34,521 bases of DNA from positions 1-34,521 of the forward strand of contig CAMCWI010000009.1 in assembly GCA_945882065.1 (NCBI GenBank), read 5' to 3'. A program made the position numbers and the translations under genes. The DNA is from Akkermansia muciniphila. GTDB taxonomy: Bacteria; Verrucomicrobiota; Verrucomicrobiia; Limisphaerales; JADLHS01. The notes under the pieces were generated by a model that did no database searches, was not told where the DNA came from, and saw only the letters and a list, made by a program, of their open reading frames with translations. Below, piece after piece: positions 540-33,187 of this stretch. Each line of letters begins with the position of its first letter. The first letter of the stretch is position 1.

Positions 540-1778
540 TCAGACGGATACGCGGTCAGCCATTTTGGTTTCTGAAAAATCAACTACTGAAGCCGACGCG
601 CTCACGGTTTTACGCTTAAAAGAAATAAGGCAACCGAGCGCGCCTGTCACGAGCGAAAGTGCGCCCACCACAACATGCGCCGTCGCCACATCCGCAGCTT
701 TGTTCGACCAGATCGTCCACGCGCCCAGCCCGACTTGAATGAAAATCAATCCCAGCCATACGAACGCGAGTGTCTTGATAGATTGGATCGTTCGCGCTTT
801 CCAAGCACACAACCACACAGCCAACAAGATCAAAAACGCCACGATGCGATGCGTCATCTGCAATCCGATCTGAAACGCAGTGATCGGATTGGAAGTGGTC
901 ACCTCTACGCGCCTCAAATTGTAACTCGCCACGGCTTCCGCGCTCATATCCGGCCAGATTTCTCCATACGCCAACGGAAAATCCGCGATCGCCAACCCTG
1001 CGTGTTGATGTCGCATCGTTGCTGCGATCAGCAACTGGACGAAGATGAGGAGCGTCGTGAATAGAAACCAGCGGCGTAGGCTGGTAGATCGCGTCACTCC
1101 GTGCGCGCCGTCGGCGGGCAGAGGACTGCCCGCCCTACCTGAAAACTGCCACCACCGACTCGTCATCAATGAGATCACCGCCAACAAAACCAAAAATCCT
1201 TGAGCCAGACAGCCGTGAACGATGCCGAACACTGTTCCCAATCGCACGTCCGCCACCAGTTGCGAATCCAACACCACGCGCAAACCGCCGAGCAATCCCT
1301 GCAACAAGACCACTACGGTCGCCCAACCGCCTAGCACGCGCAGTTGGCGGCTCGCTGGTTCGCACCGTGGCCAGAAGAAAGTAGCGATGAGCACGATCAC
1401 GCCATGAATCCCGATGTGCAGGCTGGATTGGAGTCCATTGGGGCGATTGATTCCGGCGATGCCTGAGAGGAGCAGCACGATTCCGAGAGCGATAAGAACG
1501 CGGCGCGATTTTTTCCCGAACAGCCAGCAGTTCAAAACAATTGTCAGAATGCCGACTTCAGAAGCCCACAGCCGATGTGTATGCTCATGAAAAATCCCGC
1601 CCGTGAGCCATGTCGAGATCGGCAGCGCGAACATGTTGTAGCCATAACTCGTCGGCCAGTCCGGCACGGCCATGCCCACGCCATGACTCGTCACCAACCC
1701 GCCCATGCCCACAAGCCCAAGCGTGGCCAGCACTGTGAAAACAGCGAAGCGGTGGAGACTGGAGTTATGGACCGTCAT
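540..1778 (-). CDS. ctaA: Heme A synthase (COX15/CtaA family)
   Basis: Membrane oxygenase that converts heme O to heme A for aa3-type cytochrome oxidase. From the ATG at 1778 it is 412 aa with about eight hydrophobic segments. Candidate heme-ligand histidines sit in HEHTHR, LHIGIHG, FGIVHG, QMTHR and TAHV, in the two-fold pattern of the family. A GTG at 1799 would add seven residues, but it lies inside a dispersed repeat (1794-1929), so the ATG is preferred. ctaB follows 9 bases downstream. Oddity: between the two halves, after SRWWQF, about 20 residues (GRAGSPLPADGAHGV and flanks) are encoded by a palindromic repeat at 1113-1134 inserted in frame; both halves look normal around it. Confidence 0.92.
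   Translation of the reverse strand: MTVHNSSLHRFAVFTVLATLGLVGMGGLVTSHGVGMAVPDWPTSYGYNMFALPISTWLTGGIFHEHTHRLWASEVGILTIVLNCWLFGKKSRRVLIALGIVLLLSGIAGINRPNGLQSSLHIGIHGVIVLIATFFWPRCEPASRQLRVLGGWATVVVLLQGLLGGLRVVLDSQLVADVRLGTVFGIVHGCLAQGFLVLLAVISLMTSRWWQFSGRAGSPLPADGAHGVTRSTSLRRWFLFTTLLIFVQLLIAATMRHQHAGLAIADFPLAYGEIWPDMSAEAVASYNLRRVEVTTSNPITAFQIGLQMTHRIVAFLILLAVWLCAWKARTIQSIKTLAFVWLGLIFIQVGLGAWTIWSNKAADVATAHVVVGALSLVTGALGCLISFKRKTVSASASVVDFSETKMADRVSV
1113..1134. repeat. Palindromic repeat inside ctaA
   Basis: Perfect inverted repeat with 9-base arms (GGCGGGCAG and CTGCCCGCC) around a 4-base loop AGGA. It lies within the ctaA reading frame and encodes part of the loop between the two CtaA halves. 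Its look is that of a REP-type intergenic palindrome, inserted in frame. Confidence 0.7.
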
Positions 1779-9366: not shown

Positions 9367-9374
9367 TTTTCGAT

Positions 9375-9442
9375 GTAGCAGCCGACGTCAGGAGGCTCTA
9401 ACTAAACCCGGAAGGTCAGAGCCTCCTGACGTCGGCTGCTAC
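9375..9442. repeat. Long perfect palindrome (REP-like)
   Basis: Arms 9375-9399 and 9418-9442 are a perfect 25-base inverted repeat (GTAGCAGCCGACGTC... and its complement) around an 18-base loop. It fills the gap between the ridA stop and the rmuC start. No T-run follows on the minus strand, so it looks like a dispersed REP-type palindrome and not a standard terminator, although it could stall transcription leaving ridA. Confidence 0.85.
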
Positions 9443-9447
9443 GTTGA

Positions 9448-10060: not shown

Positions 10061-10202
10061 CTTGTCTTAATTGACAGGCCGCAAGTCGCCACAAAGAACT
10101 TGCAGGGAGAACGGTGAGTGCCCGAACCAAAACTCATCCACAGCAAGGACGCTGTGTTACAACAAATGCCTCTCACAAGGAGGCGACTCACGGAATAGAG
10201 TT
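10061..10202 (+). promoter_or_regulatory. Structured flagellin 1 mRNA leader with CsrA-like motifs
   Basis: Predicted leader of about 140 nt. Four hairpins can be drawn: CTTGTC/GACAGG (10061-10078), CACAGC/GCTGTG (10139-10156), GCCTC/GAGGC (10168-10184) and ACTC/GAGT (10086-10089 shifted by 100, that is 10186-10201). CANGGA motifs occur at 10103, 10144, 10176 and 10189; the 10144 and 10189 copies place GGA in hairpin loops, and the last sits at the ribosome-binding position before the ATG at 10203. A stronger AAGGAGG at 10177-10183 is partly enclosed in hairpin 3. The arrangement is repeated before flagellin 2. Confidence 0.6.
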
Positions 10203-10991
10203 ATGATAATCAATACTAACATCGCAGCTCAGACAGGCGCCCGCCTGCTTTCTGATTCAACTAAGGCGTTGAACAAATCCCTTGCTCGTTTGTCATCCGG
10301 TCTGAAGATCGTTTCACCAGAAGATGACGCGGCAGGTTTGGCGGTATCTTCGCGTTTCGACGCGCAGATCAACCGGATCAACGCCATCACCAGCAACGTC
10401 AGCAACGCCATCTCGTTCAGCCAGACCCAGGACGGTTATCTCAAGAAGATCGCCAAAGCCCTGGATCGTATGAGCGAGCTTTCAGTCATGTCGCAGGACG
10501 TGACCAAAGGCCCAGCGGACATTGCGCTGTATCAAACAGAGTTCGCGGCACAAGCGAACTTCATCACTGACATGGCGACCAAACAGTTCAACGGCGTGGG
10601 CTTGTTGGACGCCACAGATCGCGACGTGACGGTGGATAGCGAAGGCGCGACCTTCACCATCGTGGGCGTGGACGGCTCGGCATACGACCTGACGGCGCAA
10701 GACCTGACAACCGGTGCTGCAGCTGCACAAGCGGCGGTCACAGCCATGATTGACGTGGTGGCTACAGACCGCGCCAATGTCGGTGCGAACATCTCGGTGC
10801 TGGGTTCTTACAACGACCAGAACGCCGTGTTGCGTGATAACCTTACCGCCGCCAACAGCCGCATCAAGGATGTGGATGTGGCGGAGGAAAGCACGATGTT
10901 CGCGAAGTCGAACATCCTAGTGCAAGCGGGCACGGCGATGTTGGCGCAGGCCAACTCAGTGCCGCAATCCGTCCTCAAGCTGATCGGTTAA
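10203..10991 (+). CDS. Flagellin, copy 1
   Basis: 262-aa filament subunit exported by the flagellar type III system. The ATG at 10203 gives MIINTNIAAQTGARLL; an open frame extends upstream but it is leader RNA. The N-terminal D0/D1 domain contains SLARLSSGLKIVSPEDDAAGLAVSSR and the C-terminal D1/D0 domain contains NLTAANSRIKDVDVAEES and ILVQAGTAMLAQAN, ending in the short hydrophobic tail LKLIG. The centre is a small VTVDSEGATFTI segment in place of large D2/D3 domains, so this is a minimal flagellin. It differs from copy 2 at 32 of 262 positions (counted by eye, no gaps). It has its own sigma-28 promoter and terminator. Confidence 0.97.
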   Translation: MIINTNIAAQTGARLLSDSTKALNKSLARLSSGLKIVSPEDDAAGLAVSSRFDAQINRINAITSNVSNAISFSQTQDGYLKKIAKALDRMSELSVMSQDVTKGPADIALYQTEFAAQANFITDMATKQFNGVGLLDATDRDVTVDSEGATFTIVGVDGSAYDLTAQDLTTGAAAAQAAVTAMIDVVATDRANVGANISVLGSYNDQNAVLRDNLTAANSRIKDVDVAEESTMFAKSNILVQAGTAMLAQANSVPQSVLKLIG

Positions 10992-11013
10992 TCTCAAGGA
11001 GTGGTTCACAGAG

Positions 11014-11046
11014 ACCCGCGTCGTGCTAACGCACGACGCGGGTTTT
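11014..11046 (+). terminator. Rho-independent terminator after flagellin 1
   Basis: Perfect 13-base stem (ACCCGCGTCGTGC and complement, 11014-11026 with 11031-11043), TAAC loop, followed by TTTT and a second T-run at 11050-11055. It separates the two flagellin transcripts. Confidence 0.9.
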
Positions 11047-11124
11047 CGCTTTTTTGTGACTGGAACAACCGGACGGTTTGATGTCTTAAAGCGCGTTTGA
11101 ATAGTCATGTGACTCACAATCCCA

Positions 11125-11260
11125 TTCGTCCTCGTCCTCGAAACCCAAGCGAAGACGAGGACGAGAACGAGGACGATTCGGCACGTGGAATTTTCAAACA
11201 GGCTCTTAATCTTTATCCACAAAGTCTGAGATTAAGAAAAAGATTACGATCAGGATCAAG
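11125..11260. repeat. Composite low-complexity hairpin repeat between flagellins
   Basis: 11125-11140 (CGTCCTCGTCCTCG core) is complementary to 11155-11175 (GACGAGGACGAG and related units), giving a hairpin of tandem GAGGAC-type units. It is followed by cttaatcttt (11203 on) and agattaagaaaaagatta (11228 on), another complementary pair. It looks like a dispersed non-coding repeat. The rest of the 606-base gap between flagellins holds the terminator, the sigma-28 promoter and the leader of copy 2; the frame is open upstream of copy 2 by chance. Confidence 0.6.
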
Positions 11261-11420
11261 GCCGATCTCTGGTGCTCGGCACTACCTGTCACACACGCTT
11301 TTCGATTTGTTGACCTGGAGCGAGATGGAGGCGTCAGGGCCGCACTCACTTCAACAAAAACTCCTGCATTCATGCGGTTTAAGCGGCGTCTACAATCGCG
11401 TCCACGGCGACGACATCGGG

Positions 11421-11447
11421 TTAAGTTTATTCCAAACCTGCCGATAC
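11421..11447 (+). promoter_or_regulatory. Sigma-28 (FliA) promoter of flagellin 2
   Basis: TTAAGTTT at 11421-11428, an 11-base spacer, then GCCGATAC at 11440-11447. The -10 element fits the consensus in seven of eight bases and the -35 element differs by two. Predicted start of transcription is near 11454. Confidence 0.88.
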
Positions 11448-11451
11448 AGTT

Positions 11452-11597
11452 CTTGTCTAGTGACAGGCGGTTGGCAGCCACAAAGAGCCAACGAGGAATA
11501 CGGTGAAGGCCTTAGCCAAACTTCACCAACACGGCAGGGATGTCGTGTATCAACAAGGAATCCCCTCACGGGGAAAACTCAAGGAAAGAGTAATAGT
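11452..11597 (+). promoter_or_regulatory. Structured flagellin 2 mRNA leader with CsrA-like motifs
   Basis: Same layout as the flagellin 1 leader: CTTGTC/GACAGG (11452-11467), ACACGGCA/TGTCGTGT closing a GGGA tetraloop (11529-11548, one G-U pair), TCCCC/GGGGA around TCAC (11561-11574) and ACTC/GAGT around AAGGAAA (11577-11591). CANGGA motifs lie at 11535, 11554 and 11580. The last one is also the likely ribosome-binding site for the ATG at 11598, so a protein bound there would block translation. Stems two and three differ in sequence from copy 1 yet still pair. Confidence 0.6.
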
Positions 11598-12386
11598 ATG
11601 GTCATCAATACAAACATCGCAGCTCAAACAGGCGCCCGCCTGCTCGGCGAATCCACCTCAGCATTGAACAAGTCGCTCGCGCGCTTGTCCTCCGGTCTCA
11701 AGATCGTTTCTCCGGAAGACGACGCGGCTGGCTTGGCGGTCTCTTCGCGTTTCGACGCCCAGATCAACCGTGTCAATGCAGTCAACACCAACGTCAGCAA
11801 CGCCATCTCGTTCAGCCAGACCCAGGACGGTTATCTCAAGAAGATCGCCAAAGCCTTGGATCGCATGAGCGAACTCTCGGTCATGGCGCAAGACGTGACC
11901 AAGGGTGCGGCGGACATTGCGCTGTATCAGACGGAATTCGCGGCACAAGCTGCGTTCATCAACGACATGGCGACGAAGGAATTCAACGCTGTGGGCCTGT
12001 TGGACGCCACGGATCGTGACGTGACGGTGGACAGCGAAGGCGCGACCTTCACGATCACCGGCGTGGACGGTTCGGCTTACGATCTGACTGCTTCAGACGT
12101 CAGCACGGGTGCGGCTGCTGCGCAAACAGCGGTCACCGCCATGATTGACGTGGTCGCCACCGACCGCGCTACCGTGGGTGCTAACATCTCGGTGTTGAGC
12201 TCCTACAACGAACAGTTGGCGGTTCTCCGTGACAACCTCACGGCCGCTAACAGCCGCATCAAGGACGTGGATGTGGCCGAAGAAAGCACCAAATTTGCCC
12301 GTAACAACATCCTCGTTCAGGCAGGCACGGCGATGTTGGCCCAGGCAAATGCGACTCCGCAATCCGCTCTCCGTCTCCTCCAATAA
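11598..12386 (+). CDS. Flagellin, copy 2
   Basis: 262-aa flagellin, the same length as copy 1 and alignable without gaps. The ATG at 11598 follows AAGGAAAG with 12-base spacing and gives MVINTNIAAQTGARLL. N-terminal D0/D1 (SGLKIVSPEDDAAGL) and C-terminal D1/D0 (VAEESTKFARNNILVQ) domains flank a minimal centre. Differences from copy 1 cluster in surface-type positions and the last residues (ALRLLQ versus VLKLIG). The longer upstream open frame holds the promoter and leader and is not coding. Duplicate flagellins with separate promoters may allow mixed or condition-specific filaments; which is major cannot be told from sequence. Confidence 0.97.
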   Translation: MVINTNIAAQTGARLLGESTSALNKSLARLSSGLKIVSPEDDAAGLAVSSRFDAQINRVNAVNTNVSNAISFSQTQDGYLKKIAKALDRMSELSVMAQDVTKGAADIALYQTEFAAQAAFINDMATKEFNAVGLLDATDRDVTVDSEGATFTITGVDGSAYDLTASDVSTGAAAAQTAVTAMIDVVATDRATVGANISVLSSYNEQLAVLRDNLTAANSRIKDVDVAEESTKFARNNILVQAGTAMLAQANATPQSALRLLQ

Positions 12387-17959: not shown

Positions 17960-18532
17960 TCAATTGTAATGTCCTCCCGCACATCCCTGCGCATATAGCA
18001 GGAACAAATACCCCGCCACGATCCCCGCATCCGCAGTCACCGCGAGAGGCGTGAGTAAAACCTTCTTCGTCCTCGCCAATCCGACTTCATACACCGGCAA
18101 CGCGTAGTCGCCCAACACCCGGTCGCCGAAGTAGAGTGTGAACCCGGCGGGATTCCACACCCTCACCGCCGCCAGCCCCACATTCGCCTGCGCCACGAAC
18201 CCGGAAGAGTCGTAGATCGGAATGGGCGACAACCCTTTCACCGCGCGCGATGAAACAAACGCGGGCTTGTGCGGGTTGCTGAACGGTTTGCGGTCCTGTC
18301 CCAGCCAATAAGTGCGGGGTCGCAGTTTCTCGCTCACATCCAGCCATTCGTCGTATTGCACGAGGATGTCGTATTTCGCCTCCGACTCAAACAACCTGAG
18401 ATTCGGAGGCGCGGCGGGTTCGCGAAAACGCACGAATCGTCCATCCTCCCACAACGCCGCCGTCACGCAGCCCGTCATCAGGCAGGACAGGAGTGCGAGC
18501 AAGCTGAGTTGAGATAAAGCGCGCCAGTTCAT
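17960..18532 (-). CDS. Uncharacterised lipoprotein
   Basis: 190 aa from the ATG at 18532, which begins a typical lipoprotein signal (MNWRALSQLSLLALLSCLMTGC with lipobox LMTGC at residues 18-22); the longer frame upstream has no signal and is ignored. The mature part has no motif I recognise: AALWEDGRFVRFREPA, YDILVQYDEWLDVSEKLRPR, a Pro/Lys-rich stretch, then beta-like segments and a hydrophobic C-terminal helix (LTPLAVTADAGIVAGYLFLLY). Envelope location is probable, function unknown. Upstream lie palindromic repeats (18605-18751). Confidence 0.75.
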   Translation of the reverse strand: MNWRALSQLSLLALLSCLMTGCVTAALWEDGRFVRFREPAAPPNLRLFESEAKYDILVQYDEWLDVSEKLRPRTYWLGQDRKPFSNPHKPAFVSSRAVKGLSPIPIYDSSGFVAQANVGLAAVRVWNPAGFTLYFGDRVLGDYALPVYEVGLARTKKVLLTPLAVTADAGIVAGYLFLLYAQGCAGGHYN

Positions 18533-18604
18533 CGGGGAATGATTTGTCAGACGATGCGCGGGTCCTCGTGAGTTGCCAAGAAACAAATCCAGCACACGGC
18601 AAAA

Positions 18605-18670
18605 GGAGCGCCGGTCTGTGTCCGGCTTTGGGCGGTCGAGGACGACAAGCCGCTCACAGACCGGCGCTCC
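18605..18670. repeat. REP-like palindrome with 16-bp perfect arms
   Basis: GGAGCGCCGGTCTGTG at 18605-18620 is perfectly complementary to 18655-18670, with a 34-base centre. It resembles the other GC-rich dispersed palindromes of the window in size and placement but differs in sequence. Confidence 0.8.
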
Positions 18671-18730
18671 GTAAAAAATCGAGAACGCAATATAGAGCGA
18701 TTCTCCAACTGGAAATCTATTTCGAGAATC

Positions 18731-18751
18731 ACACCGGGGATGCCCCGGTGT
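18731..18751. repeat. Short perfect palindrome
   Basis: ACACCGGGG, ATG loop, CCCCGGTGT: 9-base arms with a 3-base loop. No T-run follows, so it is probably a repeat unit and not a terminator. Confidence 0.65.
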
Positions 18752-19039
18752 CACAACCCGGATTGACCTAATTGCGGTGCCCAGCCGCGCGGTTAATGTG
18801 ATTCACCGCCAAATCTGCGGTGCGAGAGAAACGAGGGGAATATTTCAACCTGGTAGAAGTGCGAGAAGAGTGCGCGTTCCAATGCGCGACTAGTTTTGAA
18901 TCTGGACTTACGCCGTCAACCCACGGCGACAATCAGGCCGCCGATGGGGGCGCCGGCGGCTTGCGACTGGCCTGTTCGTGCCAACTCTCTCCGGCGCGGG
19001 CAGGCCAGCTCGTAATCAGGCGTAATGAAGCAGGCGAAG

Positions 19040-31933: not shown

Positions 31934-33187
31934 TCACGTCGTCAGAGCTGCGTCCCAATCTTTCCACACCGGTTCGTAACCGAGGCTTTGGATCAGCTTC
32001 GCCACTTCTTGGGGCGAGCGGTCATCGGCGATGTTGAATTGGCCGGTGGCGTTGGTGTTCTTTGTTTGGTGGGGCGAGGCTACTGACGAGCTGGCTTGCG
32101 GGGATTCAGCTCGCGAGGACTCTCGCCCCACCGCCCATTCGCTTGAACCCGCCTCTACAATTCTGCCGCGCACGGTCTGGTGGATGTTTTCCTTGCCTGC
32201 GCCGGTGTAACCACCCGGCTCAGTGTGGCTGCCTGCGCTGATGAGGGTGATGCCCAGTGGGAAAAGTCCATCGCGCAATTTCGCAGGTTCGCGAGTGGAG
32301 AGAACAAGTCCCACGTCCGGGAACATCAGGCGGAACGCGCACACCAGTTGCACGAGTTCGCGGTCGGTCATGTGGGTGAGCGGTTGAAATTCTCCAGCAC
32401 ACGGACGCATTCGCGGCAAAGAGACGGTGAGTTGCGCCTTCCAACAATTCTTCAACAGATATTTCGCATGAGCCGCCACGCTCAAAGCTTCGTATCGCCA
32501 ATCCGCCAAACCAAACAGCGCGCCGATGCCGAGCCTGCGAAAGCCTGCATCATAAGCGCGCTCCGGCGTTTCGAGTCGCCAATCGAAATTCTTCTTCGGC
32601 CCGGCGGTGTGCATGTCATCGTAGATCGTGCGGTCATACGTTTCCTGATAGACGACCAGTCCATCCGCGCCCGCCGCGACCATCGGACGATACTCGTCAG
32701 TTTCCATCGGCCCGACTTCGAGCGACACGCTGGGAATCTCCTCGTGCAATGCCGCGACACATTCCGCCATGTAACCGTTGGAGACGAACTTCGGATGCTC
32801 GCCCGCAACGAGCAAAATGTTGCGAAAGCCCTGAGCCGCCAACGCGCGCGCCTCGCGACGCACTTCATTCACAGAGAGCGTCACGCGCAGAATGGCGTTG
32901 TCGCGAGAGAAGCCGCAATACTTGCAGTTGTTGATGCACTCGTTGGAAAGGTAGAGCGGCGCGAAGAGCCGGATGACTTTGCCGAAGCGTTGCTGGGTGA
33001 TCTGTTGGGAGCGGCGGCTGAGTGGTTCGAGAAGTTCTCCTGCTGCGGGCGAGATGAGTTGGGCGAAATCAGCGAGCGAGAGCTTATCTTTCGACAACAA
33101 CTGACGGGCGGCGGCGTTACTCGTTTCAAGCGAACGCTTCACGAGTGCTTCAAGCGGCAGGGAATTGAATTCGGCGACAAAACTCAC
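31934..33187 (-). CDS. thiH: 2-iminoacetate synthase (tyrosine lyase), radical SAM
   Basis: 417-aa enzyme that cleaves tyrosine to dehydroglycine (2-iminoacetate) and p-cresol for the thiazole part of thiamine. Radical SAM cluster CINNCKYC is intact, followed by VAGEHPKF, SLEVGPMETDEY, VVYQETYDRTIYDDMHTAGPK and ISAGSHTEPGGYTGAG. C-terminal end GYEPVWKDWD is typical. Between PGGYTGAG and QFNIADDRSP lies an extra stretch of about 40 residues, part of which (AVGRESSRAESPQASS and flanks) is encoded by an in-frame palindromic repeat. The start is GTG. No other thi gene is present in the window. Confidence 0.92.
   Translation of the reverse strand: MSFVAEFNSLPLEALVKRSLETSNAAARQLLSKDKLSLADFAQLISPAAGELLEPLSRRSQQITQQRFGKVIRLFAPLYLSNECINNCKYCGFSRDNAILRVTLSVNEVRREARALAAQGFRNILLVAGEHPKFVSNGYMAECVAALHEEIPSVSLEVGPMETDEYRPMVAAGADGLVVYQETYDRTIYDDMHTAGPKKNFDWRLETPERAYDAGFRRLGIGALFGLADWRYEALSVAAHAKYLLKNCWKAQLTVSLPRMRPCAGEFQPLTHMTDRELVQLVCAFRLMFPDVGLVLSTREPAKLRDGLFPLGITLISAGSHTEPGGYTGAGKENIHQTVRGRIVEAGSSEWAVGRESSRAESPQASSSVASPHQTKNTNATGQFNIADDRSPQEVAKLIQSLGYEPVWKDWDAALTT
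32068..32132. repeat. Palindromic repeat inside thiH
   Basis: Outer arms GGTGGGGCGAG (32068-32078) and CTCGCCCCACC (32122-32132) and inner arms CGAGCTG (32087-32093) and CAGCTCG (32107-32113) give a two-step hairpin. It sits in frame inside thiH and adds about 22 codons. Confidence 0.8.

Follow-up and report, generated by a model that had tools for sequence, protein, structure and literature searches.

Within the coding sequence of thiH, this verrucomicrobial genome carries a short palindromic DNA element that is translated as part of the protein. The insert is a copy of a palindromic repeat, mobile-like and present in few copies, that has no gene of its own and occurs in verrucomicrobial subdivision 3 (Pedosphaera-like). 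Very probably the repeat entered ThiH before this species and its sister Pedos-510 diverged, landing in a linker that was already variable and unstructured, and survived there by keeping the reading frame. The element is best read as belonging to a new REP-like family whose palindromic members encode protein and are inherited neutrally in dispensable loops.

The window, that is, the whole stretch of 34,521 nucleotides that was analysed, includes thiH at 31937..33187 on the minus strand. The gene encodes a 2-iminoacetate synthase (tyrosine lyase) of 417 amino acids in a frame that is intact through the element, and is recognized by its Pfam Radical_SAM (residues 80-221) and BATS (residues 256-405) domains and by its closest solved relative, ThiH 7pd1 (E=3.4e-93). 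The element itself occupies 32068..32132, with no strand assigned, and is a 65-nt copy of a 50-nt canonical form with spacer (model R1 match of 68.1 bits, E=2.2e-9). Its left half, GGTGGGGCGAGGCTACTGACGAGCTG (32068..32093), has the outer end GTGG and contains the core conserved in every copy; the loop or spacer (32094..32106) varies in length among copies; and the right half, CAGCTCGCGAGGACTCTCGCCCCACC (32107..32132), is inverted relative to the left and ends in CCAC. The two 26-nt arms are 81% complementary across the 13 nt between them, and the outer 11 bp (GGTGGGGCGAG/CTCGCCCCACC) pair exactly. The 65-base hairpin with 11-base outer arms that the first-pass annotation had placed inside thiH is thus confirmed as an interrupted palindrome of that length, and it folds beyond shuffled sequence. 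For the sense strand of thiH from 32060 to 32140 the predicted RNA fold is -40.2 kcal/mol (z = -5.4, with none of 200 shuffles as good), and for DNA folding of the palindrome region z = -4.4. Exact inverted 11-mers no more than 60 nt apart are found at six places in the window, versus a mean of 0.76 and a maximum of 4 in 50 dinucleotide shuffles. An Rfam scan of the window returned one tRNA only, and the thiH element had no match. A strong RNA fold is what would be expected if the hairpin acted on thiH mRNA, through stability or attenuation, with the coding effect secondary. This explanation is very improbable: the hairpin lies well within the coding region, the same element is present at many unrelated positions elsewhere, and the Rfam search offers nothing in its favor.

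Copies of the repeat are readily found in this genome and in its relatives. The core GGGGCGAGGCTNCTGACGAGC occurs nine times in the genome with two or fewer mismatches and not at all in the reversed control, which disposes of the concern, raised when the hairpin was first noted, that no other copies might exist. A covariance model finds eight copies in the same genome at E<1e-5 and 59 copies across 11 of the 12 family genomes; of 58 genomes in the order, it detects the repeat in 10. Copy number is low, at about 1-15 per genome. The canonical element is 50 nt, comprised of inverted 25-nt halves, GGTGGGGCGAGGCTACTGACGAGCC and GGCTCGCGAGGACGCTCGCCCCACC, and a variable spacer that measures 0-60 nt in aligned copies. 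One three-mismatch match (C16, L047) was rejected as a chance match inside ilvB. The exact core was not found in IMG/VR viral contigs, so carriage by phage is not supported.

In the protein, the translation across the element reads, in frame, ...SEWA-VGRESSRAESPQASSSVASPH-QTKNTNATGQF, and the element accounts for ThiH residues 355-377. The insert had been described as lying after PGGYTGAG, and it does fall in the loop that follows this motif, but not directly after it, since it starts some 23 residues farther on. Measured from PGGYT to GQF, the segment has 61 residues here and 56 in the sister species (G005, MAG Pedos-510), whereas in about 80 ThiH homologues it is nearly always 35-49 residues, with a mode of 44 and a single homologue (L143) at 55; the earlier estimate of about 22 added residues is in line with these lengths. 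ThiHs of this group are hypervariable in the linker, which is only about 2 residues long in the solved ThiH 7pd1 and reads SEWATPTNGHATNATGQF in L122, the nearest homologue without the element. In an AlphaFold model, pLDDT is about 28-30 across the insert versus about 80-98 over the greater part of the barrel. The linker that carries the insert is thus predicted to be disordered and outside the radical-SAM barrel, and the 7pd1 linker and the model both favor the original placement of the extra residues away from the radical SAM core. The comparison with sister species that had been proposed for ThiH shows that Pedos-510 shares the element, in a copy 15 nt shorter around the spacer and with its frame intact, and that the residues are not conserved in the roughly 80 other ThiHs, from which the element is absent. 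Presence in both sister species and absence elsewhere indicate that the insertion predates the split of the two.

ThiH is one of many proteins that have taken up this sequence. At least 25 of 60 family copies examined sit in frame inside Pfam-supported genes, as judged in draft MAGs from ORFs, codon scores and Pfam domains that span the element or lie on either side of it. The genes include thiH (in two species), uvrA, recN, a DUF58 gene, panC (G008 and G004), bioA (twice in G003, and in G010), pdxJ, argJ, miaA, miaB, murG, lnt, mutL, addB, mfd, rluD, an MqnC/CofH-type radical SAM gene, oppD, hsdR and two DNA methyltransferase-type genes. A host gene that was clearly broken was not found; a G003 copy (L243) considered as a candidate proved to be intergenic. 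The consensus element can be read without a stop in four of its six frames, and all four are in use: GGASVPASRLVSSLAPP in uvrA, the DUF58 gene and miaB; WGEATDEPAREDARPT in recN, panC, pdxJ and murG; VGRASSRAGSSVASPH in thiH, bioA, argJ and rluD; and GGAKLPTSRLAGTLAPP in hsdR. The use of four reading frames argues against selection for one peptide. It also bears on the proposal that the extra residues are a functional, selected ThiH loop (e.g., a partner-binding segment) and the palindrome incidental. Retention of the insert in the sister species with its frame intact would fit such a role, but identical DNA in unrelated genes, the shortened sister copy, the ThiHs that do without the insert and its modeled disorder make the proposal quite improbable.

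The length of the element, whether 50 nt or the 65 nt found in thiH, is 2 mod 3, so that simply inserting it would put the gene out of frame. Even so, compared with the usual loop length the proteins gain whole residues (ThiH +18 relative to its nearest homologue, PanC +11, and loop 2 of BioA +14), and only frame-compensated events are therefore found inside genes. Survival of such events alone would be the expected outcome if the host gene were under purifying selection. In panC of G008 and G004, which represent two genera, the element lies at the identical nucleotide junction (L281, L282), and G011, a congener of G008, has no element there; either independent hits or multiple losses may have produced this pattern. 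Comparison of mutL and recN between sister species gave no clean empty site, the linker of the other species itself differing at that place. For thiH, the copy that jumped into an already variable, unstructured linker in the ancestor shared with Pedos-510 would owe its survival to a net change that left the frame intact, to the absence of stops from four of the six element frames, and to the linker's tolerance of extra residues. The encoded peptide itself would be neutral for ThiH.

How the element moves, or has moved, is suggested by its ends and flanks, and a plausible route would be as DNA, acted on in trans by a single-strand (Y1-type, RAYT-like) transposase. The element ends are GGTGG...CCACC, so that GTGG is present at both outer ends. 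This is a GTRG-type tag of the GTAG-type REP superfamily, a match that may be fortuitous. Among about 70 copies compared with shuffled pairs, flanking direct repeats of 2-9 nt showed no excess that would indicate target-site duplication. The lack of duplication speaks against a MITE of the DDE type and is compatible with single-strand Y1 transposition. Descent as a MITE from a DDE-type insertion sequence that had GGTGGGGCGAG as its terminal inverted repeats would account for the 11-bp outer repeats, and a size of 50-84 nt is compatible with it. It is an unlikely origin, given also that no parent IS was seen with the copies examined and that the interior is likewise conserved and palindromic.

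A closer contender, given somewhat less than an even chance, is that the element is a genuine REPIN, an inverted pair of GTRG-tagged REPs that a cognate RAYT (a Y1 tyrosine transposase) copies together. The GTGG outer ends, the inverted halves with a variable spacer and the missing target-site duplication all agree with a REPIN, RAYT genes are present in 32 of 38 relatives, and GTGG-tagged REPs are reported for Opitutus terrae in PMC3733652. Against it, copy number is low, and isolated consensus halves form no significant hairpin relative to shuffles (z of -0.02 and -0.40), and the element therefore does not qualify as a clean REP stem-loop dimer. Further, direct flanking by the element was seen at none of the 32 RAYT loci scanned with model R1, in a survey that was not exhaustive. 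The genome's own RAYT (L055, G000 C203) is flanked by another palindrome, CCTGGGGCGTTGCCCCAGG. This RAYT also adjoins apparent type I restriction-modification genes. Two copies lie within about 1 kb of RAYTs (G021 C176 and G020 C74) and were rejected as REPtron evidence, the first being inside ribD and neither flanking the RAYT directly. In Pedos-510 the element is present and a RAYT gene was not detected. With halves that lack a hairpin and none of the 32 RAYT loci directly flanked, mobilization of the element by RAYT can be called no more than possible.

Palindromic repeats other than the thiH type also enter genes in frame. The element in ctaA (1072..1139, minus strand), comprised of GTAGGGCGGGCAGTCCTCTGCCCGCC and an inverted GTAGATCGCGTCACTCCGTGCGCGCC unit and read as GRAGSPLPADGAHGVTRST, is a pair of GTAG-type stem-loop units of a different family. 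This agrees with the initial observation that the thiH and ctaA elements differ in sequence. The two types can be joined: this genome has such combinations in uvrA and in its DUF58 gene, G004 has one in a DNA methyltransferase gene, and G009 has one in miaB. The further suggestion that more than one repeat family may behave in this way is borne out by unrelated in-frame palindromes in bioA and recN of relatives. Loop 1 of BioA (from NEPASLLA to KVFFSD) has received at least five unrelated palindromes, all in frame, across about 25 relatives (L251-L280). The bioA gene of G003 holds two thiH-type elements, and the RecN linker of relatives contains several unrelated palindromic repeats, also in frame. 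Of these results, the least expected is that unrelated repeats have repeatedly used the same loops. It could equally well be right or wrong to generalize that, in Pedosphaera-like Verrucomicrobia, several unrelated small palindrome families repeatedly and independently colonize the same tolerant loops of housekeeping proteins, such that mobile palindromes are a standing source of new protein sequence rather than rare accidents.

The window has additional repeated sequences. A near-perfect 30-bp palindrome (GTAGCAGCCGACGTCAGGAGGC...) of the GTAGCCGCCGACG-like family lies between two genes at 9370-9447, and GTAGCCGCCGACG-like palindromes are also found in frame inside bioA of relatives. A strong 24-bp inverted repeat at 18605-18670 (GGAGCGCCGGTCTGTG...), in the 5' part of the ORF at 17960-18754, is a candidate palindromic repeat. 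At 10071-12386 lies a tandem pair of flagellin-like genes with 86% identity over 300 nt.

The thiH-type copies are clear cases, with sister-species comparison, of mobile-like DNA that has come to encode part of the housekeeping enzymes in free-living bacteria. Their sites show where proteins tolerate about 20 extra residues, and because some loops are hit repeatedly, counting could test whether palindromic repeats drive protein loop evolution.

In-frame intragenic palindromes have been described in Rickettsia and in Opitutus terrae, and the kind of phenomenon is therefore already known. Rickettsia palindromic elements (RPE; Ogata et al. 2000, 2002), according to PMC10969869 and PMC3733652, are inserted in frame in unrelated genes and add tens of residues at tolerant sites; they are about 150 nt, or are shorter with a CGTC tag. 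The thiH-type element resembles them as a palindromic, mobile-like repeat with multiple genome copies, inserted in frame in unrelated and apparently functional genes where it adds tens of residues at tolerant sites. It differs from them in its phylum, in its use of four open frames, and in its ends, which are GGTGG...CCACC in place of the CGTC terminal tag. Bacterial MITEs (Correia, ERIC and others) are likewise short, without a transposase gene and with inverted-repeat termini, but for the present element neither target-site duplication nor a parent IS was found. With REPINs, which are mobilized by RAYTs (Bertels and Rainey 2011, PMC3116915), it shares two inverted conserved halves, a variable spacer, non-autonomy, GTGG outer ends and absence of target-site duplication. 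It departs from them in three respects: RAYT genes with the element as a flank were not found, its half-units have no hairpin of their own, and many copies are intragenic rather than intergenic.

The nearest precedent is that of Di Nocera et al. 2013 (PMC3733652), who report intragenic GTAG REPs; O. terrae, a verrucomicrobium, has the most, and both of its uvrA genes are among the hosts. Intragenic REP dimers are there said to encode 20-30 residues, the GTAG-20 family of O. terrae to carry a GTGG tag, and two Xanthomonas species to have different REPs at about the same recB site. The thiH-type element has, perhaps fortuitously, the GTAG/GTRG end tag of this superfamily but lacks the 5-13 bp stem-loop that each unit forms on its own. 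Like the O. terrae REPs, it is a short palindrome with a GTGG tag that lies in frame in housekeeping genes of a verrucomicrobium, uvrA among them. Unlike them, it belongs to a different group of Verrucomicrobia, is present at about 1-15 copies per genome, and has half-units without a hairpin of their own. Although it may coincide with one of the O. terrae families, such as GTAG-20, the thiH-type element is best taken as a family newly delimited, on good comparative evidence, in Verrucomicrobia of another group; it is the family and its extent that are new.
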